From: Bacteroidales bacterium | GTDB taxonomy: Bacteria; Bacteroidota; Bacteroidia; Bacteroidales; UBA932 | NCBI GenBank assembly: GCA_024692185.1 | Contig: JAILMV010000028.1 | Location: 1 to 43,273, forward strand | Direction: 5' to 3' | DNA: 43,273 nucleotides | Shown here: positions 4,871 through 18,117 of the stretch, piece after piece | How the letters are laid out: each line of letters opens with the position of its first letter | Numbering within the stretch: position 1 is the stretch's first letter | Made by a program: the position numbers and the translations under genes | Notes under the pieces: model-generated | Database searches by the model: none | Seen by the model: only the letters and a program-made list of their open reading frames with translations | Told to the model about the DNA's origin: nothing

Positions 4871-4947
4871 GGTGCGATTAGTTCAGTTGGTAGAGCACCA
4901 GATTGTGGTTCTGGTTGTCGTGGGTTCGAGCCCCACATCGCACCCCA
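4871..4947 (+). tRNA. tRNA-His (anticodon GTG), with encoded G-1 and CCA
   Basis: Acceptor arms GTGCGAT (4872-4878) / ATCGCAC (4937-4943); anticodon stem-loop CCAGA-TTGTGGT-TCTGG; T-arm GTGGGTTCGAGCCCCAC; G-1 at 4871, C73 at 4944, CCA at 4945-4947. Confidence 0.96.
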
Positions 4948-5242: not shown

Positions 5243-5725
5243 ATGCATAGAATCCTGGCCTTAGTTATCGTAGCTCTGCTTTCCGCTTTCTGCAGCAATG
5301 CCCCTGAGGCACCGTCGCAGGAGTGCTGTGAGCAGGCGTTTTCGCAGATTCCCGACCATAAGCACTTCAGCAAAGTGGACAAGAATGCCTTTTCGGCCGA
5401 GTTCCGGGAGCTTTTGGAAAAGGCTTATGCCGCAGCGGATAAGGAAGAGCAGGAGAATCCGGGAGAAATCGGGGACTATGAATTCCTTAGCTACTGGTAC
5501 GATGGCAACGGCGATTCCCTGCTGGAAAGCGAAGGCAGCAGCATAGTTTTCGAACCAGGCGAGGTGAAGGACGGCAGGGTCAGGGTGGATATCTGCATTA
5601 ATACGGAACACAAATTCGCCATGCTCCTGCTATATGAAGACAAGGCATGGCGTATAGATGACTGGATCGATCCCGCCTTCGGGAAATCCATGAAAACGAT
5701 GACCAAGGACTACTTGGCGCGATAG
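5243..5725 (+). CDS. Secreted/lipoprotein-like hypothetical protein, possibly DUF3828-like
   Basis: Signal-like N-terminus MHRILALVIVALLSAFCSNAP; C-terminal LLLYEDKAWRIDDWID resembles DUF3828-like endings. Follows previous gene by 1 nt. Confidence 0.6.
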   Translation: MHRILALVIVALLSAFCSNAPEAPSQECCEQAFSQIPDHKHFSKVDKNAFSAEFRELLEKAYAAADKEEQENPGEIGDYEFLSYWYDGNGDSLLESEGSSIVFEPGEVKDGRVRVDICINTEHKFAMLLLYEDKAWRIDDWIDPAFGKSMKTMTKDYLAR

Positions 5726-6555
5726 CAGCGCAGGGTATTCTTCATCAGCATGGCGATGGTCATTGGCCCTACTCCTCCGGGAACAGGGGTAATCCAGGAA
5801 GCCAGATCCACGCAAGAATCAAAATCCACATCTCCACAGAGCTTTCCTTCGGGCGTGCGGTTGATACCCACGTCGATGATGATGGCACCGGGCTTCACCA
5901 TATCTCCGGTGATAAGGCCGGCCTTGCCCACGGCAGCTACCAGCACATCTGCCTGACGGCAGACGGAGGCCAGGTCGGCGGTACGCGAATGGGCTATCAC
6001 CACAGTGGCATTGCGGTCCAGAAGCAGCTTGGCAACGGGTTTGCCTACGATATTGCTGCGGCCTACGACCACAGCGGTCTTGCCGCAGAGATCGACGCCG
6101 GTGCTATCCAGAAGGCGCATCACGCCGGCAGGGGTGCAAGGCACTATGCAATCCTTTCCAAGCCAGAGTCCGGAAACATTTGAAGGATGGAATCCGTCCA
6201 CGTCCTTTGCGGCGGAGATGGCATCAATGACCTTCTCTTCGTCGATATGCTTGGGAAGAGGCAGCTGAACCAGCAGGCCGTCCACCGCAGGATCTGCGTT
6301 CAGTTCGGCTATCTTGGCCAGGAGTTCCTCCTCCGAAACCGAGGCGGGCAGTTCTATCAGCAAGGATTCCATTCCGGTATAGGCAGCAGCCTTGACCTTG
6401 TTGCGCACATACACCTGGCTGGCAGGGTTCTCCCCCACTATGATTACGCAGAGGCAGGGTTTGCGCTCTCCGCGGGCTTCTATTTCCGCCACTTCGGCAC
6501 GGACCTCGTCCTTGACGACCGCGCTCAATGCTTTTCCATCGAGAATCTTTCCCAT
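5710..6555 (-). CDS. folD: Bifunctional methylenetetrahydrofolate dehydrogenase/cyclohydrolase FolD
   Basis: MGKILDGKALS..., PASQVYVRNKVKAAAYTGM, DGLLVQLPLPKHI, KDVDGFHPSNVG-like, VVGRSNIVGKPVAKLL, TPVPGGVGPMTIAML. Start set at internal ATG (6555). Confidence 0.95.
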   Translation of the reverse strand: MGKILDGKALSAVVKDEVRAEVAEIEARGERKPCLCVIIVGENPASQVYVRNKVKAAAYTGMESLLIELPASVSEEELLAKIAELNADPAVDGLLVQLPLPKHIDEEKVIDAISAAKDVDGFHPSNVSGLWLGKDCIVPCTPAGVMRLLDSTGVDLCGKTAVVVGRSNIVGKPVAKLLLDRNATVVIAHSRTADLASVCRQADVLVAAVGKAGLITGDMVKPGAIIIDVGINRTPEGKLCGDVDFDSCVDLASWITPVPGGVGPMTIAMLMKNTLRCYRAK

Positions 6556-6556
6556 A

Positions 6557-7885
6557 TTATTTCTCAAGTGCGCAGTGCGCAATATCATTCCTGTAAAACA
6601 AATTGTCGCATTTCAGCTTGGCGACCTCGCGATACACGTTCTCGCGGGCATCTGCCACGTCGCGCCCGCTTCCGACCACCATCAGCACACGGCCGCCGGC
6701 AGTCACCAGCACGTTGTCGCGGTAGGCTGTTCCCATATGGTAAACCTTGCCCTGCACGGCCTCCAGGCCGGAAATCACGGCGCCCTTCTCGTACTTGCCA
6801 GGATAGCCCTTAGAGGCAAGCACCACGCCCAAGGTCACGGCATCTTTCCAAACAGGGGCGGAGGTTTCACGCCCGGACGCAACGGCTTCAAAGATATCGA
6901 AAATATCGCTTTCCAGCAAAGGCAGCACCACTTCCGTCTCGGGATCCCCGAAACGGGCGTTGAACTCTATCACCTTAATTCCCTGCGGAGTCTTCATAAG
7001 CCCTCCGTAGAGCACGCCGCTTAGCGGGCATCCCTCCGCAACCATCGCGGAAGCAGCCTTGCACATAATTTCCTTGAACGCGAAGTCCTTGTCCTCTACG
7101 CTGATGAACGGCAGGCCGGTATAGGCTCCCATTCCTCCGGTATTAGGACCTTTGTCGCCATCGAAGGCGCGCTTATGATCCTGGGAGAGAGGCATGGGAT
7201 ACACTCGTTCCCCGTCCACGAAGCAGAGGAAGGAGAATTCAGGGCCGGTAAGATAATCCTCGATCACTACCCTGCCCTTTCCGAAAGAAGCATCCAGCAA
7301 CATATCGGAGAGGGCCGCGCGAGCCTCTTCAAGATCCTGGGCTATCACCACCCCCTTGCCCGCAGCCAGCCCGTCGTACTTGATGACTGCGGGGAATGGC
7401 CTCCCGGACACATAGGCCAGAGCATCGTCGTAAGAATCGAAGCTCTTGTAGCCAGCGGTGGGAATACCGTACTTGGACATAAGTTCCTTGGCGAATTCCT
7501 TGGAACTCTCGATGCGGGTCGCGGACTGGGTATGCCCGAATATCTTGAGTCCTGCTGCACGGAAGGCATCCACTATGCCGGCGGCCAGCGAGGCTTCGGG
7601 ACCGACGATGGTAAGATCCACCTGATTCTCCAGCGCAAAAGCCTTCAGACCCTCGACATCGGTATCTTTAAGCTGTACATTGAACGCCTGTTCAGCTATG
7701 CCCGCATTTCCAGGAGCGCAATAAATACGCTCCACCTGCGGACTGCGGCTGAGGGCATCCACTATGGCATGCTCACGTCCGCCGCCACCTATCACCAGGA
7801 CAGTTTTCCCGAGGCAGTCCTCCAGGAGGATATCCTTGGCGGCCTTGGCAAATCTCTGTGTAGGAAGAGGATATACTAAACCCAT
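6557..7885 (-). CDS. purD: Phosphoribosylamine-glycine ligase PurD
   Basis: VLVIGGGGREHAIV, APGNAGIAEQAF, KYDGLAAGKGVVIA, GPNTGGMGAYTGLPF, NARFGDPETEVVLPLLESD. Start uncertain (24-aa extension before the usual domain start). Confidence 0.95.
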   Translation of the reverse strand: MGLVYPLPTQRFAKAAKDILLEDCLGKTVLVIGGGGREHAIVDALSRSPQVERIYCAPGNAGIAEQAFNVQLKDTDVEGLKAFALENQVDLTIVGPEASLAAGIVDAFRAAGLKIFGHTQSATRIESSKEFAKELMSKYGIPTAGYKSFDSYDDALAYVSGRPFPAVIKYDGLAAGKGVVIAQDLEEARAALSDMLLDASFGKGRVVIEDYLTGPEFSFLCFVDGERVYPMPLSQDHKRAFDGDKGPNTGGMGAYTGLPFISVEDKDFAFKEIMCKAASAMVAEGCPLSGVLYGGLMKTPQGIKVIEFNARFGDPETEVVLPLLESDIFDIFEAVASGRETSAPVWKDAVTLGVVLASKGYPGKYEKGAVISGLEAVQGKVYHMGTAYRDNVLVTAGGRVLMVVGSGRDVADARENVYREVAKLKCDNLFYRNDIAHCALEK

Positions 7886-7890
7886 GACTA

Positions 7891-9420
7891 TTAATGTTTA
7901 AAATGACGTACGCCCGTAAAGAGCATCACTATTCCAAGTTCATCCGCTTTGGCAATCGCATCTGCATCGCGTATGCTGCCGCCGGGCTGGACTATTGCTG
8001 AGACTCCGTATTCCGCAGCAAGGGCCACGGTATCGTCGAAGGGCAGGAAACCGTCGGAGGCCAGGATGAGCCCGGACTCGAATCCGGCTGCCTTAGCCTC
8101 TTCCAGGGCGATGTGGGCGGAACCCACGCGGTTGGTCTGGCCTGCGCCTATGCCTATGGTGTGGCAGTCGCGGACCACTGCTATCGCATTGGATTTCACG
8201 TGCTTGACTATCTTCCAGCCGAATTCCAGATCCTTCATCATGGCTGCTGAAGGCTTGGCCTTGGTGACGCACATCTCGGCAGTGACTTCCTCAACCTGGG
8301 TGTCCAGCTGCTGCACCAGCAGGCCTCCGGTCACGCCCACATACTGGGGCACGGGGGCTCCGGTGCGGGTCATATCGACCTGCAGCACGCGGAGATTCTT
8401 CTTCGCAGAAAGGATCTCCAGGGCTTCGGGAGTATAGGAAGGAGCGATTACTATCTCCAGGAAGATGGGCTTCATACCCAGGGCGACCTCGGCAGTAAGC
8501 TCGCGGTTCACTCCGACTATACCTCCGTAGATGCTCACCTTGTCGGCCTCATAGGCGGCCTGCCAGGCTTCCTCGATGCTGGGAGCGACTGCGGTTCCGC
8601 AGGGATTCATATGCTTGAGGGCCACGCAGCAGGGCTCCTCGAAATCGCGGAGCACGTTCAGGGCTGCATTGGCATCCTGGATGTTATTGTAGGAAAGCTC
8701 TTTGCCCTGGATCTGCTTTGCGAAGGCCAGAGAGAAGGGAACCGGCTGCATATCCGCATAGAAAGCTGCGCTCTGGTGAGGATTCTCGCCGTAGCGGAGC
8801 TCCTGCTTGAAATCGAATTCCAGGAAAAGCTTCTCGGGAAGACCTGCCTTGGCACGCATATAAGTAGCGATGCAGCTATCGTATTCGGCAGTGTGGGTGT
8901 AGGCCTTGGCTGAGAGCTGCAGGCGGGTTTCCTGCGAGGTCTTGCCATTTGCGCGGAGTTCCTCCAGCACGCGGCCGTAATCCGAAGGATCGCAGACAAT
9001 TGTCACGTCCTTCCAGTTCTTGGCTGCGCTGCGCACCATCGAAGGACCGCCGATGTCGATGTTCTCGATGGCTTCCTCGAGGGTCACGCCCTCCTTTGCT
9101 ATGGTCTGGCGGAAAGGATAAAGGTTGACGCATACCAGGTCGATGGTTTCTATCCCATTCTCCTCCAGGGTGGCCATATGTTCGGGGAGATCGCGGCGGG
9201 CAAGTATTCCACCATGCACCTTGGGATGCAGGGTCTTCACCCTTCCGTCCAGAATCTCGGGGAATCCCGTAACCTCGCTGATGCCTATGGTCTTCACTCC
9301 TTCGCTCTCGAGGAGCTTCTGGGTACCGCCGGTGGCAATTATCTCCCAGCCCAAATCTACAAGGCCCTGCACGAAGGCAACCAGGCCCGTCTTATCGCTT
9401 ACGCTTACTAATGCTCTCAT
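7891..9420 (-). CDS. purH: Bifunctional AICAR formyltransferase/IMP cyclohydrolase PurH
   Basis: MRALVSVSDKTGLVAF, RVKTLHPKVHGGILARRD, ELRYGENPHQSAAFY, ALKHMNPCGTAVA, FDDTVALAAEYGV..IVQPGGSIRD. Confidence 0.97.
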   Translation of the reverse strand: MRALVSVSDKTGLVAFVQGLVDLGWEIIATGGTQKLLESEGVKTIGISEVTGFPEILDGRVKTLHPKVHGGILARRDLPEHMATLEENGIETIDLVCVNLYPFRQTIAKEGVTLEEAIENIDIGGPSMVRSAAKNWKDVTIVCDPSDYGRVLEELRANGKTSQETRLQLSAKAYTHTAEYDSCIATYMRAKAGLPEKLFLEFDFKQELRYGENPHQSAAFYADMQPVPFSLAFAKQIQGKELSYNNIQDANAALNVLRDFEEPCCVALKHMNPCGTAVAPSIEEAWQAAYEADKVSIYGGIVGVNRELTAEVALGMKPIFLEIVIAPSYTPEALEILSAKKNLRVLQVDMTRTGAPVPQYVGVTGGLLVQQLDTQVEEVTAEMCVTKAKPSAAMMKDLEFGWKIVKHVKSNAIAVVRDCHTIGIGAGQTNRVGSAHIALEEAKAAGFESGLILASDGFLPFDDTVALAAEYGVSAIVQPGGSIRDADAIAKADELGIVMLFTGVRHFKH

Positions 9421-9977
9421 TTAATTAGTTTTGATATTGTTTCTACGTATAATTGATGTTCTATCTTCTGCCCTATGCGGTGCACCTCCTCCGGGTCGTT
9501 CCCGTCGTATTCGAAGGCCTTCTGCGCAATTATGCGCCCGCCATCCAGGTCGCTGTTGACCCAGTGGATGGAGATGCCATACACCTTGACTCCGTATGCC
9601 ACGGCCTGCTCCACCGCATGTGCGCCCTTGAATGCGGGCAGCAGCGAGGGATGGATGTTGATTATCCGCCCCTCATAGGCCTTCAGCAGCACATCTCCTA
9701 CGATGCGCATATATCCTGCGAGACAGATGAGGTCCACGCCTTCGGTGTCCAGCCTGGCGACTATCTCGGTCTCGAAAGCCTCCTTGGACGGATAATCTTT
9801 TGGAGAGAAGACGAAGCTGGGGATGCCCCTGGCTGCGGCCTTCCCTACCACGGCTGCGGCCGGCTTGTCGCAGACCATCAGCACCACCTTGGCATCCAGC
9901 CTTCCATCCGCGCAGGCATCCGCAATCGCTTCGAAATTGCTCCCCGTTCCGCTCGCAAAAACTGCTAGTTTCTTCAT
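9417..9977 (-). CDS. purN: Phosphoribosylglycinamide formyltransferase PurN
   Basis: MKKLAVFASGTGSNFEAIADA, LAGYMRIVGDVLLKAYEGRIINIHPSLLPAFKG. Start moved to ATG 9977 because the longer ORF start lies in an inverted repeat. Confidence 0.95.
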   Translation of the reverse strand: MKKLAVFASGTGSNFEAIADACADGRLDAKVVLMVCDKPAAAVVGKAAARGIPSFVFSPKDYPSKEAFETEIVARLDTEGVDLICLAGYMRIVGDVLLKAYEGRIINIHPSLLPAFKGAHAVEQAVAYGVKVYGISIHWVNSDLDGGRIIAQKAFEYDGNDPEEVHRIGQKIEHQLYVETISKLIK

Positions 9978-9994
9978 TTCCATATGTTCTTCTG

Positions 9995-10016
9995 GTGGTG
10001 GAATACATTCCACCAC
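9995..10016 (-). repeat. Perfect inverted repeat/hairpin between purM and purN
   Basis: GTGGTGGAAT (9995-10004) - AC - ATTCCACCAC (10007-10016), 10-bp arms, 2-nt spacer. Confidence 0.9.
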
Positions 10017-10022
10017 ATAAAA

Positions 10023-11054
10023 CTATAGCATATTAATGACAACTCCTGGCTTGTCTGTAACAATACCGATAACCGATGCCTTTTCGCCGCAAGCCTCGAG
10101 GATACTGACGACCTTGGGAGCATCTGCAGCATCCACCACGGCAACCATCCCAATACCCATGTTGAAGATATTGAACATCTCCCGATGAGGCACGCCACCC
10201 CACTTCTCCAGCATCCTGAACACCGGAAGAATCTCCCAAGTCCCCTCGCAGATCTCCAGCCCCTGGCCCTTCTGCAACACGCGCGGAATATTCTCGTCGA
10301 AACCGCCGCCGGTAATATGGCAGATTCCGTGAACGTCGCAATTGCGGATGACCTCCAGCATCTGCTTCACATATATCTTGGTAGGAGTAAGCAGGACCTC
10401 ACCAAGCTTGCGCCCGCCGAATTCGGGAATCTCGTCCTCGTACTTCAGACCCGCATCCGCTACTATCTTGCGCACCAGGCTGAAGCCGTTGGAGTGCACA
10501 CCGCTGGAAGCAACGCCAACCAGAACGTCCCCGACTTTTACCTTGGAACCGTCGATCAGCTTGGACTTCTCCACCACACCTGTAGTGTAACCTGCAATAT
10601 CGTATTCGCCGTCGGAATACATACCCGGCATCTCGGCAGTCTCGCCTCCCACCAGGGCGCATCCGGCCTGGCGGCAACCTTCCGCAACACCGGCCACTAT
10701 GGCTTCGACCTTGGCAGGGACATTATGTCCGAGGGCCACATAATCCAGGAAGATGAGGGGCTCCGCTCCCTGGGCCAGCACATCGTTCACGCACATTGCC
10801 ACGGCATCGATGCCTATGGTGTCGTGCTTGTCCATAGCGAAGGCTATCTTGAGCTTGGTACCCACGCCGTCGGTGCCGCTCACCAGCACAGGCTCCTTGA
10901 CTCCGAGGGCCGAAAGGTCGAACATCCCTCCGAAAGAGCCGATGTTGCCCATGGAACCGGTACGGGCGGTGGAAGCCACGTGCTGTTTGATTCTCCTGAC
11001 TACTTCATAGCCGGCCTCGAGATTCACGCCGGCTTTTTCGTAACTAACTGCCAT
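10023..11054 (-). CDS. purM: Phosphoribosylformylglycinamidine cyclo-ligase PurM
   Basis: [71 protein letters not shown]. Confidence 0.97.
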
Positions 11055-11057
11055 ATC

Positions 11058-12416
11058 TTATTCGTTTGTTATTGCATCATCATAAAGAAGGGTGGGATAA
11101 TTGCCCGTGAAGCAGGCCTGGCAGGGATCTGCGCAGCCGAAACAAGAATCACGGGTAGATTCCGGGCTGAGGTAGCCCAGAGAGTCGGCTCCGATGGCCT
11201 TGCAGGCCTCCTCGAGAGTGCGGTGCGAGCAGAGCAACTCTTCCGGAGTGGAAGTGTCCACGCCATAATGGCAGGTGAAGCGCATCATAGGGCTTGCTAT
11301 GCGCACGTGCACCTCGGAAGCGCCCGCCTCGCGGAGAAGCTTGACTATCTTGAGGGAGGTGGTGCCGCGGACGATGGAGTCGTCGATCAGGGCTATCCTC
11401 TTTCCTTTGACTATGCTGCGCACGGGGCTCAACTTCATCTTAACGCCAAGTTCGCGCATGGACTGCACAGGCTGGATGAAGGTACGGCCTACATATTTAT
11501 GCTTGACCAGACCCATTTCGTAGGGAATACCGCTCTCTTCGGCATAACCCATCGCAGCGCTGAGGCTGGATTCGGGCACGCCCACCACTATGTCGGCATC
11601 TGCCGGGCATTCGCGGTACAGACGGCGGCCGGCCTCCTTGCGGTAGGCATGCACGTTGCAACCATCGATGTCGCTGTCCGGACGGGCGAAGTAGATGTAC
11701 TCCATCGCGCACATCCTGTGGCGGGAGAAACGGGAGTAGAGGGTACTGCGGAGGCCGTTGGTATCGAAAGATACAATCTCTCCGGGCTTTACGTCGCGGA
11801 GGAACTCGGCACCCATTATTTCGAAGGCACAGGACTCGCTGCCCACCACGAAACCATCACCCAGCTTGCCAATGCAGAGGGGCTTGATGCCGTATTTGTC
11901 GCGGCAGGCATATACGCGGCTCTTGGTCATGATGACGAAGGCGAAACCGCCCTCCACCATATTCAGGGCCTTGACTATCTTGTCGATGCGGTCCTCGTTG
12001 GAATTCTTCTTGATAAGATGGGCCAGCAATTCGCTGTCGGTATCGGACTGGAAGATGGTGCCATGCTTCTCCAGATACTCGGCTATCTGCTTGGAGTTTA
12101 CGAGATTACCTTCACCTGCGATGGCGAAGTTCCCGCTCTTGTGATGGAAGAACAGGGGTTCCACATTTTCGGGACCGCCCTTGGAGGCATTGGCATACTT
12201 CACGCTGCCTATTCCCATATGGCCCTTCAGACCGGCAATGATATTGTCGTTGAACACCTCGTTGAGCAGGCCCAGACCGCGATAACGGTAGGACTGTCCA
12301 TGCTCGTCGAAGGTCACCATGCCACCGCCTTCCTGCCCGCGGTGCTGGAGATTGTGAAGTCCGTAATAGAGAAGGGTTGACGCGTCTTTTACGCCATAAA
12401 CTGCGAGAACTCCCAT
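11058..12416 (-). CDS. purF: Amidophosphoribosyltransferase PurF-like, with degenerate glutaminase active site
   Basis: YYGLHNLQHRGQEGGG, SRHRMCAMEYIYFARPDSDIDGCNVH, PRPP loop ALIDDSIVRGTTS, CFGCADPCQACFTGNYPT. N-terminus MGVLAVYG aligns where (M)CGVFGI is expected. Confidence 0.93.
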   Translation of the reverse strand: MGVLAVYGVKDASTLLYYGLHNLQHRGQEGGGMVTFDEHGQSYRYRGLGLLNEVFNDNIIAGLKGHMGIGSVKYANASKGGPENVEPLFFHHKSGNFAIAGEGNLVNSKQIAEYLEKHGTIFQSDTDSELLAHLIKKNSNEDRIDKIVKALNMVEGGFAFVIMTKSRVYACRDKYGIKPLCIGKLGDGFVVGSESCAFEIMGAEFLRDVKPGEIVSFDTNGLRSTLYSRFSRHRMCAMEYIYFARPDSDIDGCNVHAYRKEAGRRLYRECPADADIVVGVPESSLSAAMGYAEESGIPYEMGLVKHKYVGRTFIQPVQSMRELGVKMKLSPVRSIVKGKRIALIDDSIVRGTTSLKIVKLLREAGASEVHVRIASPMMRFTCHYGVDTSTPEELLCSHRTLEEACKAIGADSLGYLSPESTRDSCFGCADPCQACFTGNYPTLLYDDAITNE

Positions 12417-12417
12417 A

Positions 12418-13140
12418 TTATGATTCTTTTATTGATTCAAGCCTTTCGAGCACGGTCTTGTAGGATGCCACCACGTCGCTGAGGTCCAGACGGAAGCGGT
12501 CCTTGTCCAGGCGTCGTCCGCTTTCCTCGTCCCACATACGGCAGGTATCCGGGCTGATCTCGTCGGAGATGATTATCTCCCCATTGTCGGATGCGCGGCC
12601 GAACTCCAGTTTCATGTCCACCAGCTCGATTCCTGCCTTGTGCAGCAGCGCGGAGAGCAGTTCTCCGGAGCGGCGGGCCTCGGCGAACATGTAGTCAATC
12701 TCCTCATAGCTGGCAAGCCCCAGGGCAACTGCGTGGTGCTTGTTGATGATGGGGTCGCCGAGTTCATCGCTATTGTACTGCAGATCCACTATGGTGTTCG
12801 GAGTGGGCGTTCCGTCCTCAACCCCGAGCAGGCTGGCCAGAGTGCCGGCGATGCGCTTCCTCCAGGTGACTTCCAGGGGGATGATTTCGATCTTGCGGCA
12901 GAGCTGCTCGCGCTCCCCTACCTTCTCGATGAAGTGGGTCTTGACTCCGCAGTTGTTCAGATATCCCAGCAGGATAGCCGAAATGCTGTTGTTCAACACC
13001 CCCTTACCGTCGAAACGGGCGCGCTTGATGCTGTCGTAAGCGAGGGTCACATCCTTGTATCGGAAAATGACCTTATTGGGATCGTCGGTTGCGTAAACCT
13101 GTTTTTCGTTCCCATCGAATACTAGTTCTTTCTTTATCAT
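12418..13140 (-). CDS. purC: SAICAR synthetase PurC, copy 1 (E. coli-like length, divergent N-terminal loop)
   Basis: DGNEKQVYATDDPNKVIFRYKD, IIPLEVTWRKRIAGTL, DPIINKHHA, DMKLEFG, SDEISPDTCRMWD, LDKDRFRLDL. Confidence 0.9.
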   Translation of the reverse strand: MIKKELVFDGNEKQVYATDDPNKVIFRYKDVTLAYDSIKRARFDGKGVLNNSISAILLGYLNNCGVKTHFIEKVGEREQLCRKIEIIPLEVTWRKRIAGTLASLLGVEDGTPTPNTIVDLQYNSDELGDPIINKHHAVALGLASYEEIDYMFAEARRSGELLSALLHKAGIELVDMKLEFGRASDNGEIIISDEISPDTCRMWDEESGRRLDKDRFRLDLSDVVASYKTVLERLESIKES

Positions 13141-16100
13141 TTTTTACGGAAATAAGTTACGGCATTGTCGAAGATGGGCTGGAATCTGTCCCCGCTGATG
13201 TTCTTGAAGAGGTTCTTCTCGTAGCGCTCGCTGTGACCCATCTTACCGAGTATATGCCCGTCCGGGCTGAGGATTCCTTCGATATCGTAGTAGGATCCGT
13301 TGGGATTGTCCACATAACGGAAGGCCACCTGTCCCTTGGCAAATAGCTCGCGGGCCAGCTTTTCTTCCACCACGAACTTGCCTTCGCCGTGGCTGAAGGC
13401 TATGCTGTGGCGCTCTCCCTTGCTGAACGAGGCCAGCCAGGGAGAGTTCACCGAAGCCACTTCGGTGGTAGCGATGAGGGAAACGTGGCGGTTGATATCG
13501 TTGCGGAAAAGTGTAGGAGAATCCGGACCTGTGCAGCCCAGCTTCCCATAAGGCAGCAGGCCGCTCTTGACCAGGGCTTGGAAACCGTTGCATATGCCCA
13601 GGATAAGGCCTCCGCGCTTCAGCAGCGCGCTGATGGCGGCACCTACCTTGGCATTGTTGATGACGTCTGCAATGAACTTGCCGCTGCCGTCGGGCTCGTC
13701 GCCGGAGGAGAATCCGCCGCTGAAGGCCAGTATATGGCTTTCGTCGATACGGGCGGCAAGGGCGTCGATAGAGGCGAGCACATCCTCCGGACGTAGGTTC
13801 CGGAAGATGAAGGGGCGGACTTCGGCACCGGCGCGGCGGAAGGCCTTGGCGGTGTCATAATCGCAGTTGGTACCGGGGAATACCGGCAGGCAGACCACGG
13901 GAGTCTGTACCGGGGCTCCGGGCCAGCTCATATTGTCGGCCGCAGGCTTCTCTGCCTCGACCTCGGGAGCGGGCTCGTCGAAGAGGGGCTTGACCTTCGC
14001 GGGATAGAGCTTGGAATAGCGTCCTTCGTAGGCCTTCTCCAGCTTTTCGAGGGAGATTAGCTGTCCGTTTATGCAGATGTCTGCGTCCGTGACTTCGCCC
14101 AGCAGTTCGGCTGCGGGGAAATCGAGGCAATCCTTGCTCTCCACCAGCACCGAGCCATAGCCCAGGTCGAAAAGTTCGTTTTCGGGAATCTCTACCTTGA
14201 CTCCGAGCTTGTTGCCGAGGCTCATCTTCACCAGGGCTTCCGCCACGCCGCCGTAGCTGAGGGACCAGGCGGATACTATGCTTCCGGCCTCGATGCGGGA
14301 GTGGATGTAGTTCCAGTTCTCCTGTAGTGCATCGGTATCGGGCATATAGTTCGCGAGGGCCTTGTGGCGGATGAGGTAGAGCTTGTTGCCGGCCTTCTTG
14401 AATTCGGGAGATATGACCCTGCCGGCATCTACCGTAGTTATGCCGAAGGCCACGAGGGTGGGAGGAACGTGGATGTGTTCGAAGGTTCCGCTCATGGAAT
14501 CCTTGCCTCCGATGGAAGGAAGGCCGAGGGCCTCCTGCATCTTGAGGGCGCCCAGCAGGGCGGCCAGAGGCTTACCCCAGCTGTGGGGATCCTTGGTCAT
14601 CCTCTCGAAATATTCCTGATAGGAGAAACGCATTCCGGACCAGTCGGCACCTGCGCAGACCACCTTGGTGCAGGCCTCCACCACTGCATAAGCAGCTGAA
14701 TGATAAGGGCTCCAGATGGCTATGTCGGGGTTGTAGCCGAAGGCCATCACGCTGGCGGTATCGGTGTATCCGCTGACGGGCAGCTTCTGCACGCTTACCT
14801 GGGTCTCGGTGGCCTGGCGGCTTCCGCCGTAAGGCATCAGCACGGTAGAACGGCCGATGGTGGAGTCGAACATCTCCACCAGACCCTTCTGGGAGGCTAC
14901 GTTGGGAGAGCCCATCACGGAAATCATCTTCTCTTCGAGCCCGGCTCCTTCTATCTTGCGATCGAAGGGATTGCGGTCCTCGACGGAGGAGATGGCAGCC
15001 TTGGCATAGTGCTTTGCGCCGGCGCTGTCGATGAAGGAACGGGCCAGGTCGCAGACCTTGGAATCACCGTAGAACATGCGCATACGGCCGCTGTCGGTAA
15101 CATTGGCGACGTGCGTGACTTCTATATTGTCGGCTGCGCAGAGGGCCTTGAAAGCCTCCACGTCGGCCGCATCTATCACCACTGCCATACGCTCCTGGGA
15201 CTCGCTGATGGCGAGTTCGGTAGCATTCAGGCCGGCGTACTTGGTCGGGACCCTGTCCAGCCAGATGTCCAGCCCGTCGGCGAGCTCGCCTATGGCTACA
15301 CTCACTCCTCCGGCGCCGAAGTCGTTGCTCTTCTTTATAAGGCGGGTAGCCTCCGGACGGCGGAACAGCCTCTGCAGCTGGCGCTCCTCGGGTGCATTAC
15401 CTTTCTGGACCTCGCTGCCGCAGGTTTCCAGCGATGCTTCGGTGTGCTCCTTGGAGGAACCGGTGGCACCGCCGATTCCGTCACGGCCGGTACGACCGCC
15501 GAGAAGCAGCACTACATCGCCCGGTACAGGATCTTCCCTGCGTACGTCGGAGGCCTTCACGGCGCCTACCACGGCGCCTATCTCCATTCGCTTGGCGGTA
15601 TAGCCCTCGGAGTAGATTTCACGGACGTGGGTGGTGGCGAGGCCTATCTGGTTGCCATAGCTGGAATAGCCTCCCGCTGCCTTGCGGCTGATCATCTTCT
15701 GGGGAAGCTTGCCGGGGATGGTGTCGGCCACTGCCGCACAAACATCTCCCGCACCGGTAACACGCATCGCCTGATATACGTAGGCCCTGCCGGACAGAGG
15801 GTCGCGGATGGCTCCGCCGAGGCAGGTGGCAGCGCCTCCGAAAGGTTCTATCTCGGTAGGATGGTTATGTGTCTCGTTCTTGAACTGCAGCAGCCATTTC
15901 TGGGGTTCTCCGTCCACCGTTGCGGTGATGAAGATGCTGCAGGCATTGTTTTCTGAGCTCTGCTCCAGGTCGTCCAGCTTGCCCTTGGCCTTGAGATAGC
16001 GGGCGCCGATGGTGGCTAATTCCATCAGGCAGTAGGGTTTCCGGCTGCGGCCGAGTTCCTCGCGCATCCTGGCTACCATCTCCAGGGAAGCCTGAAGTTC

Positions 16101-16823
16101 GGGCTTGAGGAAGGAATCGTCGATGTCTATCTCTTCTATCTCGGAAGTGAAGGAGGTGTGACGGCAATGGTCGCTCCAGTAGGTGTCCAGTATGCGGAGT
16201 TCGGTTTCGGAGGGGCAGCGGCCCTCGGCCTTGAAGTACTTCAGGACCTCGCGGAGGTCATCGGTATTCATTGCCAAACCATGGCTGCGGCAGAAATCCG
16301 CGAACTTGCTTTCATCCATATCCAGGAAGGAGGAAAGGTCCTCCAGAGGCTTCACGTCCGCCCTTTCATTGAGGGAAAGGACGCTGAGGTCCTTGCGGCG
16401 GCTTTCTACCGGATTGATGAAATAATGTGCTATCTTTTCAAGCACGGCGGCATCCAGATCGTCGTCGAAGACTAGCAGGCGCGAACTCCTGATACGGATA
16501 TCGGCTGCAGGGTCGATCAGATGCACGCAATCGACTGCGGAAGATGCCCGCTGGTCGAACTGCCCCGGAATGTATTCCACGGCAAGATATTTTTTCCCGG
16601 AGAGGTCCAGGCTGTCGCTGACATTGTCGGTAACGACTTCCCCGAATACGCTGTAGCGGCATTTTTCCACCAGCTCGTCGGAGAAACCGAAAAGGTCGTA
16701 GACGTTGATCAGACGCAGCGACCTAAGGTTCAGTGACAGGTTCTCGTTGAATTCTGCGAGGAGGCTCTGCGCCTCCACGCTGAAAGAAGCTTTTTTCTCT
16801 ACGAATAAACGTTTGTTAGCCAT
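13137..16823 (-). CDS. purL: Phosphoribosylformylglycinamidine synthase PurL (single-chain)
   Basis: 1228 aa; SDHCRHTSF, FKNETHNHPTEIEPFGGAATCLGGAIRDPLSGRAY, C-terminal glutaminase FPGTNCDYDTAKAF and GICNGFQALVKSGLLP. Confidence 0.97.
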   Translation of the reverse strand: MANKRLFVEKKASFSVEAQSLLAEFNENLSLNLRSLRLINVYDLFGFSDELVEKCRYSVFGEVVTDNVSDSLDLSGKKYLAVEYIPGQFDQRASSAVDCVHLIDPAADIRIRSSRLLVFDDDLDAAVLEKIAHYFINPVESRRKDLSVLSLNERADVKPLEDLSSFLDMDESKFADFCRSHGLAMNTDDLREVLKYFKAEGRCPSETELRILDTYWSDHCRHTSFTSEIEEIDIDDSFLKPELQASLEMVARMREELGRSRKPYCLMELATIGARYLKAKGKLDDLEQSSENNACSIFITATVDGEPQKWLLQFKNETHNHPTEIEPFGGAATCLGGAIRDPLSGRAYVYQAMRVTGAGDVCAAVADTIPGKLPQKMISRKAAGGYSSYGNQIGLATTHVREIYSEGYTAKRMEIGAVVGAVKASDVRREDPVPGDVVLLLGGRTGRDGIGGATGSSKEHTEASLETCGSEVQKGNAPEERQLQRLFRRPEATRLIKKSNDFGAGGVSVAIGELADGLDIWLDRVPTKYAGLNATELAISESQERMAVVIDAADVEAFKALCAADNIEVTHVANVTDSGRMRMFYGDSKVCDLARSFIDSAGAKHYAKAAISSVEDRNPFDRKIEGAGLEEKMISVMGSPNVASQKGLVEMFDSTIGRSTVLMPYGGSRQATETQVSVQKLPVSGYTDTASVMAFGYNPDIAIWSPYHSAAYAVVEACTKVVCAGADWSGMRFSYQEYFERMTKDPHSWGKPLAALLGALKMQEALGLPSIGGKDSMSGTFEHIHVPPTLVAFGITTVDAGRVISPEFKKAGNKLYLIRHKALANYMPDTDALQENWNYIHSRIEAGSIVSAWSLSYGGVAEALVKMSLGNKLGVKVEIPENELFDLGYGSVLVESKDCLDFPAAELLGEVTDADICINGQLISLEKLEKAYEGRYSKLYPAKVKPLFDEPAPEVEAEKPAADNMSWPGAPVQTPVVCLPVFPGTNCDYDTAKAFRRAGAEVRPFIFRNLRPEDVLASIDALAARIDESHILAFSGGFSSGDEPDGSGKFIADVINNAKVGAAISALLKRGGLILGICNGFQALVKSGLLPYGKLGCTGPDSPTLFRNDINRHVSLIATTEVASVNSPWLASFSKGERHSIAFSHGEGKFVVEEKLARELFAKGQVAFRYVDNPNGSYYDIEGILSPDGHILGKMGHSERYEKNLFKNISGDRFQPIFDNAVTYFRKK

Positions 16824-16872: not shown

Positions 16873-17343
16873 TCAAATTACGGTGTTCAAGACCTTGTCG
16901 CTCTGAGCTTTGCGGAATTCCTGGAGCTTTGCCGAGAGGCCCTCATCCTTGAGCGCAAGTATGGCCACGGCGTAGAGGGCGGCATTGCGGGCCCCGTCGA
17001 TCGCCATGGTGGCGACGGGGATGCCCGAAGGCATCTGGACAATGGAAAGCAAGGAATCCAAGCCGTTGAGAGCCTTGGATTTAACGGGTACGCCGATCAC
17101 AGGCATGGTGGTGAGGGCGGCGATAACCCCGGGAAGATGGGCGGCACCGCCTGCTCCCGCAATGATTATCTCGACGCCTCGGTCCTTAGCGGAACCCACA
17201 TATTCGGCGAGGGGGCCGGGATTGCGATGGGCACTGAGGACCTTCTTCTCGTAAGGAACACCAAATTCCTCGAGCGCAGCGCATGCGGGGGACATGACTT
17301 CCCAGTCGCTTGCACTGCCCATTATGATTGATACTTTACTCAT
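16873..17343 (-). CDS. purE: N5-carboxyaminoimidazole ribonucleotide mutase PurE (class I-like)
   Basis: [75 protein letters not shown]. Confidence 0.96.
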
Positions 17344-18020
17344 GCGAAGAAGAGTTTGGAAAGGGTCATCGGATCTATGTACTGCCCGTCCTTATAGACG
17401 CGCATATTGCCGGATGCTATCTCATCGATAAGCATTACTTTTCCATCCTGGTCGTAGCCGAACTCGAACTTGATATCGTAGAGCACGAGGCCCTTGGCTT
17501 TAAGGTCGTCGGCAACCACCTGGGTAATGCGCTGGGTCATGTCTTTGATGGCGTCGTACTGCTCCGCCGTCATCACGCCCAGCACCACGAGTCCGTCCTT
17601 GGTAACCAGAGGGTCACCCTTGGCATCGTTCTTGAACGTCATTTCCACATAAGCGGGGAGATCGGTACCGGGTTCGATATATTCCCCGTAACGTTTAATG
17701 AAACTACCCACCGCCTTATGACGGCAGATAACCTCCAGACCATGGCCGAATACCTTGGCAGGAAGCACCTCCATAGTAGTGTCGGAAAGATTCGCGCTCA
17801 CATAATGGGTGCGTATGCCGGCGGCATTGAGCTTTTCAAAGAAATACACGGACATACGGAGATTCACGTCGCCGACACCCTCGATGGTAAGGCCCACGGA
17901 ATTCTCGCCCGGATCGAACACGCCGTCCTTGCCAGTGCAATCATCTTTGAATTTCAGAAGGAAATGACCGTTGTCAAGGGCAAAGACATCTTTTGTCTTG
18001 CCTGTGTAAACTCGTTTCAT
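17340..18020 (-). CDS. purC: SAICAR synthetase PurC-like, copy 2 (distinct subtype)
   Basis: [33 protein letters not shown]..., [56 protein letters not shown]. Start moved from 18101 to ATG 18020. Confidence 0.88.
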
Positions 18021-18062
18021 ATATAAAATATAGGTACTGATGATTCTACCAACAACGGGACA

Positions 18063-18090
18063 CAAATTTACTAAAAAAATCGTAAATTTG
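18063..18090. promoter_or_regulatory. Palindromic divergent promoter between pur operon and WG-repeat gene
   Basis: CAAATTTAC (18063-18071)-TAAAAAAATC-GTAAATTTG (18082-18090): perfect inverted repeat; each arm carries an outward-facing TAAATTTG -7 box. Confidence 0.65.
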
Positions 18091-18117
18091 AAAGTTCTCA
18101 AAAAGACTTATTAACAA

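Follow-up and report, generated by a model that had tools for sequence, protein, structure and literature searches.

PurF, a textbook example of a glutamine amidotransferase, commits nitrogen to purine synthesis and contains an internal channel for ammonia. The carbamoyl-phosphate synthetase I of ureotelic animals has an amidotransferase domain without the catalytic Cys and runs on free ammonia. According to the account of Mei and Zalkin (1989) given in PMC3261824, E. coli PurF with a replaced Cys1 loses the use of glutamine and keeps its ammonia-dependent activity. The Tyr74 and Ile335 residues of the E. coli enzyme form a wall of the NH3 channel (PMC7953260). For PurF' of Crenarchaeota, an ammonia-dependent activity has been put forward as a hypothesis (PMC3261824). 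Our literature search in open-access papers found no report of a natural bacterial ammonia-dependent PurF.

The window, a stretch of 43,273 nucleotides of Bacteroidales DNA analyzed here as a whole, belongs, as contig C216, to a 1.8-Mb MAG with a completeness of 70.9%. On its minus strand, at 11058..12416 with the stop codon counted in, lies a gene for a PurF-like protein of 452 aa. The protein matches the TIGR01134 (purF) profile from model position 2 to the end with 452 bits against a cut-off of 350, and its top matches in the PDB are the B. subtilis PurF entries 1ao0/1gph (506 bits, whole-length homology). The best fold match of its AlphaFold model is also B. subtilis PurF; at a pLDDT of 69, the domain folds are recovered, while the domain orientation and several loops are unreliable. 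The N-terminus is MGVLAVYGVKDAS, and the initiator Met codon (12414..12416) stands where the Cys1 nucleophile belongs. An in-frame TAA is located 5 codons 5' of this start, with no Cys codon between them. The canonical GHVRYAT is replaced by GSVKYAN (residues 70–76, 12189..12209), in which the Gln-binding Arg (E. coli R73) has become Lys and the NH3-channel Tyr (E. coli Y74) is retained; the roles of these two residues are taken from PMC7953260. The canonical HNGN is replaced by GEGN (residues 101–104, 12105..12116), with Glu instead of the oxyanion-hole Asn. The equivalent of D127 (SDTD) is retained. The PRPP-binding motif DDSIVRGTT (11358..11384), the PRPP loop, the flexible loop and the Fe-S ligands Cys 236, 382, 432 and 435 are intact. 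An earlier note on this DNA had described the N-terminus as lacking a propeptide, a nucleophile and any alternative upstream start or Cys, had pointed out both altered motifs, and had judged the PRPP loop and the Fe-S-type cysteines to be intact. All of these readings were borne out. Judged from its sequence, the window protein is a PurF homolog by all PRTase criteria, yet it is without the defining glutaminase features. Since these features are absent, the name "glutamine amidotransferase" is unsuitable for it.

We searched 400 genomes of the genus with this protein. The window type, which aligns from residue 1, was represented by 128 rows (127 genomes), and these homologues are 62–97% identical to the window PurF. 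In 122/122 distinct genes of this Cys-less type, position 1 is Met, and it is Cys in 23/23 Cys-bearing relatives. The Gln-binding Arg position holds Lys in 92 genes, Gln in 21 and Arg in 3. The oxyanion position, which is Asn in 23/23 Cys-bearing relatives, is Glu in 74 Cys-less genes and Asp in 48, and nothing else occurs there; the Asp127 position is His in about 9/122. It turned out that just 12 columns conserved in the Cys-bearing relatives differ in majority residue in the Cys-less type, and the glutaminase-motif columns among them are Cys1, His70, Arg72, Asn102 and Ser126 (B. subtilis numbering). The changes in what used to be the glutamine pocket follow one consistent pattern (invariant Asp/Glu, Thr to Asn, Ser to Thr). 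On the PRTase side, 71/71 proteins of the Cys-less type have the Fe-S Cys 236/382/437/440 of the B. subtilis subtype, and Lys305, Arg311, Arg321, Lys328 and DDSIVRGTT are invariant in all of them, as are the channel residues Tyr73 and Ile314 (E. coli Y74 and I335). Thus, glutamine chemistry appears to have been dropped, and phosphoribosyl transfer and the checked channel residues appear to have been kept. The conclusion of the earlier note that this enzyme cannot use glutamine itself is strongly supported by the comparison of these genes, and by the known mechanism Cys-less PurF presumably cannot act as a glutamine amidotransferase. The same note had named a sequencing error or an upstream start encoding Cys as what could overturn its reading. 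A sequencing error or an oddity of one genome is excluded because Met1 is common to all 122 distinct homologous genes and none of them has Cys immediately before it. An upstream start containing Cys is likewise rejected, stop codons being located within 10 codons in 107/122 genes.

The Cys-less purF is under purifying selection, and its PRTase half is more constrained than its glutaminase half. The median dN/dS is 0.14 for the whole gene, 0.20 for the glutaminase domain and 0.084 for the PRTase (1847 pairs). The ratio of glutaminase to PRTase protein distances is 2.30 in the Cys-less type versus 0.99 in the operonic Cys-bearing relatives. Invariant positions make up 42% of the PRTase in the Cys-less type versus 26% in the Cys-bearing set, the two sets differing in diversity. 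Selection thus continues to act on the glutaminase domain, and a docking or a regulatory role would also be compatible with this. Nearly all of the 80 named contigs with the Cys-less type come from ruminant-forestomach MAGs (rumen, reticulum, omasum, abomasum), and a few have other origins, among them horse feces and buffalo cecum. Among 295 genomes drawn from the order, no Cys-less member of the clade was found beyond the genus; the close matches there align from residue 2 and carry EECG. All of the genomes compared are MAGs, and gene absences are therefore statistical. One genome (G249) has two nearly equal Cys-less purF copies (C73:1514-2866 and C78:25530-26882), which is either a duplication or a strain mixture.

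The window purF lies in an operon of purine genes on the minus strand, in the order purC-like, purE, purL, purC-like, purF, purM, purN, purH, purD, folD. The head of the operon is a second purC-like gene (17340..18101; TIGR00081, 125 bits), followed by purE (16873..17343; TIGR01162), by purL for a single-chain FGAM synthase (13137..16823; TIGR01857) and by the purC-like gene directly upstream of purF (12418..13140; TIGR00081, 172 bits, cut-off 189.9). Downstream of purF are purM (10023..11054; TIGR00878), purN (9417..10016; TIGR00639), purH (7891..9420; NF002049), purD (6557..7885; TIGR00877) and, at the end of the operon, folD (5710..6588; NF010786 and related models). The two purC-like genes are different: between species, the one adjacent to purF is 41–80% identical and the leading one 77–93%. 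An Rfam scan of the window for RNA elements upstream of the operon gave a tRNA gene on the plus strand (4872-4944) as its sole match. The class-I glutaminase Cys motif of PurL, GICNG, is intact in the window and in 161/161 loci, and the MCGIV motif of GlmS is intact as well. Because PurL and GlmS retain the catalytic Cys, the loss of the glutaminase is selective. We found no clear purK in 28 genomes with Cys-less PurF, although purE is present. A true purK occurs only in three Cys-only relatives (G013, G074 and G163), and the weaker matches are probably PurT. We considered whether the genomes with Cys-less PurF had lost purK in parallel; its absence is not specific to them, as most Cys-only relatives have no purK either. 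The presence of purE without purK may reflect a CO2-rich habitat.

All 40 of the long loci of the Cys-less type are pur operons with the gene between purC and purM. A phylogeny of 78 proteins, built with IQ-TREE and with archaeal sequences left out, shows the Cys-less type as a single clade (SH-aLRT 100) nested among the operonic Cys-bearing PurFs of the same genus. In G016, G013 and G417, a Cys-bearing PurF fills the same operon slot (purL-purC-purF-purM or purH). The single nested clade and the shared slot indicate one loss of the glutaminase, by an ordinary PurF at its original position in the operon. The Cys-less descendant then spread together with this operon, in which it is found in all 40 long loci.

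The genus contains four PurF types: the window type, a short Cys-bearing type, a long Cys-bearing type (570–590 aa, MxxLKHECG) and a distant 475-aa type beginning with MGGFFG. Dedicated searches revealed no other PurF in 15 genomes with the window type that are 92–98% complete (G023, G119, G129, G165, G173, G280, G397, G071, G390, G231, G358, G069, G188, G370 and G315). Incompleteness cannot plausibly account for all 15. The window's own assembly has more than one PurF. The search for a second purF with an intact Cys, proposed in the earlier note, yielded the first 39 codons of such a gene, MRELHEECGVVGIYG, outside the pur operon at the extreme end of contig C23. In a 97%-identical relative (G399, locus L123), an intact Cys-bearing PurF adjoins the same glycosyltransferase gene, and the C23 fragment is therefore likely genuine. 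The Cys-bearing copy is gained or lost about 13 times on the tree, and the Cys-less gene stays in the operon. Because it is the sole PurF in near-complete genomes, Cys-less PurF is unlikely to be a mere regulatory paralog or to depend on a second PurF. The three options left by the earlier note can thus be narrowed: ammonia dependence stands out, and both a purely regulatory paralog and a glutaminase supplied by a second PurF are disfavored by at least 15 near-complete genomes without another PurF.

We consider it likely that Cys-less PurF is an ammonia-dependent PRPP aminotransferase. In this role, it would join free NH3 to PRPP and so provide 5-phosphoribosylamine to the purine operon in which it lies. 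The nitrogen source may be ambient ammonia, an abundant compound in the forestomach, from which most of these bacteria were sampled. An Asp or Glu invariably takes the place of the oxyanion Asn, beside the mostly kept Asp127, and this suggests that the pocket now attracts NH4+; the emptied glutamine pocket could be an entry or binding site from which NH4+/NH3 passes to the old channel. Species that have only the Cys-less type probably make purines directly from the surrounding ammonia.

Where both PurFs coexist, the Cys-bearing copy is located outside the pur operon. The long Cys-bearing purF forms an operon with PII, amtB, asnB and glmS, whose families were checked. In four loci (L103, L104, L106 and L111), this operon is compact and unites glutamine-dependent enzymes with an ammonium transporter. 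AmtB is encoded in 11/12 genomes with the long type, and in the twelfth the contig ends there. The short Cys-bearing purF adjoins PII-amtB in G001, G336 and G307, and the gene order in G242 is guaB-guaA-carA-carB-purF-glnN-gltB. In many other genomes, the short-type purF is found with carAB, pyrG or glnN or near gltD, and in some it is merely beside purA or a glycosyltransferase gene. Rumen Prevotella respond to ammonium limitation with a 27- to 69-fold induction of the PII-amtB-asnB cluster and of glnN-2/gltBD (PMC5552732). In the genomes whose sole PurF is Cys-less, AmtB was not found (0/23). By simple count, Cys-bearing PurF goes with amtB (20/14 against 0/19, p=1.2e-5). However, this association is confounded by ancestry, and the long-type purF is itself linked to amtB in a single block. 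Among pairs chosen to be independent on the tree, 2 pointed in the same direction, 0 in the opposite direction, and 6 were ties. Since this is not significant, the association is support and not proof. It is possible that the Cys-bearing PurF in the nitrogen loci is a reserve enzyme that draws on glutamine when ammonia is short; the pairs AsnA versus AsnB and GDH versus GS-GOGAT would be comparable.

We also found a GuaA that consists of the ATP-pyrophosphatase and stands alone, the class-I glutaminase domain being absent. It is about 319–327 aa long and occurs as two sequence types (319 aa and 327 aa). Such a GuaA is present in 25/40 genomes with Cys-less PurF versus 1/14 Cys-only relatives (p=0.0004, ancestry ignored). 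One of the genomes, G180, may in part reflect a contig-end effect, and without it the association has p=0.0006. In G023, G129, G231 and G165 (L258:4826-5782, L259:4691-5647, L261:5117-6073 and L260:5006-5986), where the gene follows guaB in three cases, no full-length GuaA was found. In other genomes, the stand-alone GuaA often accompanies a full-length one. No glutaminase subunit is adjacent to the stand-alone GuaA. These observations allow a broader and more tentative proposal, which we hold to be somewhat less than an even chance: a lineage of mainly rumen Bacteroidales may have shifted purine synthesis to free ammonia. In this lineage, PurF would have lost its glutaminase once and gained an acidic ammonium site, GuaA would independently have become free of the glutaminase domain in many members, and a glutamine-dependent PurF would have been kept or regained only in a PII/AmtB/AsnB/GlmS module for nitrogen scarcity.

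The alternative that fares best is that a separate glutaminase, an orphan class-I or class-II subunit or a general one, feeds Cys-less PurF in trans, which would make PurF the synthase subunit of a split amidotransferase. Split glutaminase/synthase pairs exist in other families, and the retained glutaminase domain with its partial constraint could preserve a docking surface. Nevertheless, no extra glutaminase gene accompanies the conserved operon in any of the 40 loci, where the only such domain is that of PurL, which serves its own synthase; a Cys-bearing PurF is no possible partner in the genomes that have none. We therefore regard this alternative as unlikely. We give a rather smaller chance to a regulatory or structural paralog, that is, a pseudoenzyme that forms mixed tetramers with an intact PurF or modulates it. 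The start of a Cys-bearing PurF in the window genome, as in many relatives, is in its favor. It is contradicted by the 15 near-complete genomes, by the coming and going of the Cys-bearing copy while the Cys-less gene remains in the operon, and by a PRTase active site that is more constrained than in the Cys-bearing homologs, the opposite of decay. A changed substrate seems quite improbable. The consistent remodelling of the former glutamine pocket would allow another amine donor, with PRPP kept. However, every long locus has the gene in the pur operon with purC and purM as its neighbors, and in many genomes it is the sole PurF while the rest of the pathway is kept, and therefore 5-phosphoribosylamine must come from somewhere. 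Finally, a degenerate remnant or artefact (a sequencing error, a mis-called start, or a decaying gene in a purine auxotroph), suggested by the fragmented state of the source MAG, is refuted: the 122 genes come from many assemblies, all of them begin with this Met1 without a preceding Cys, their reading frames are fully open, dN/dS is low, and the pathway encoded around them is intact.

If Cys-less PurF is indeed ammonia-dependent, ammonia from the surroundings can feed the step that commits nitrogen to purines, and this lineage offers a natural test of the roles that the channel and the glutaminase domain have without glutamine hydrolysis. It would also be a metabolic innovation linked to high-ammonia life in ruminants, hosts whose microbial nitrogen use is relevant to farming. 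Annotation is affected as well: the Cys-less genes score as ordinary purF, and pipelines and flux models will label them glutamine-dependent.

Among the known systems, carbamoyl-phosphate synthetase I shows the same retention of an amidotransferase domain without Cys, but it is another enzyme with a class-I domain and belongs to another kingdom. The B. subtilis PurF (1ao0, 1gph; Fe-S type) shares with the Cys-less type the PRTase site, the flexible loop and the four Fe-S cysteines; in contrast, the Cys-less type is without Cys1 and a propeptide, and its Gln-binding Arg and oxyanion Asn are replaced. The Bacteroidales MGGFFG type is likewise without Cys1. However, it is only 27–33% identical, has a different PRTase loop and is without the GHVRY and HNGN motifs altogether, which makes it a lineage independent of the Cys-less type; the window PurF does not show its combination of an MGGFFG start and missing HVRY and HNGN. 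The MGGFFG family is present in 101/400 genomes of the genus and extends to other families within the order (L113:3565-4989, L121:3480-4883, L122:5680-7080), and in G060 its gene adjoins purL. No Cys-bearing PurF was detected in G037 and G039 (98–99% complete) and in G369, which have the MGGFFG type, and for this reason it may be another ammonia-dependent PurF. The E. coli Cys1 mutants summarized in PMC3261824 share the loss of Cys1, but they are laboratory mutants, whereas the Cys-less type arose in nature, is under selection and has a pocket that is remodelled further. As a precedent, PurF' of Crenarchaeota comes closest; it is likewise PurF-like, without the N-terminal Cys and clustered with purine genes (PMC3261824). 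The bacterial lineage is nested in one genus and is probably separate from PurF', and its oxyanion Asn is acidic throughout. Moreover, the crenarchaeal PurF' always coexists and clusters with an intact PurF (PMC3261824), whereas in these Bacteroidales the intact PurF is either unlinked or was not found.
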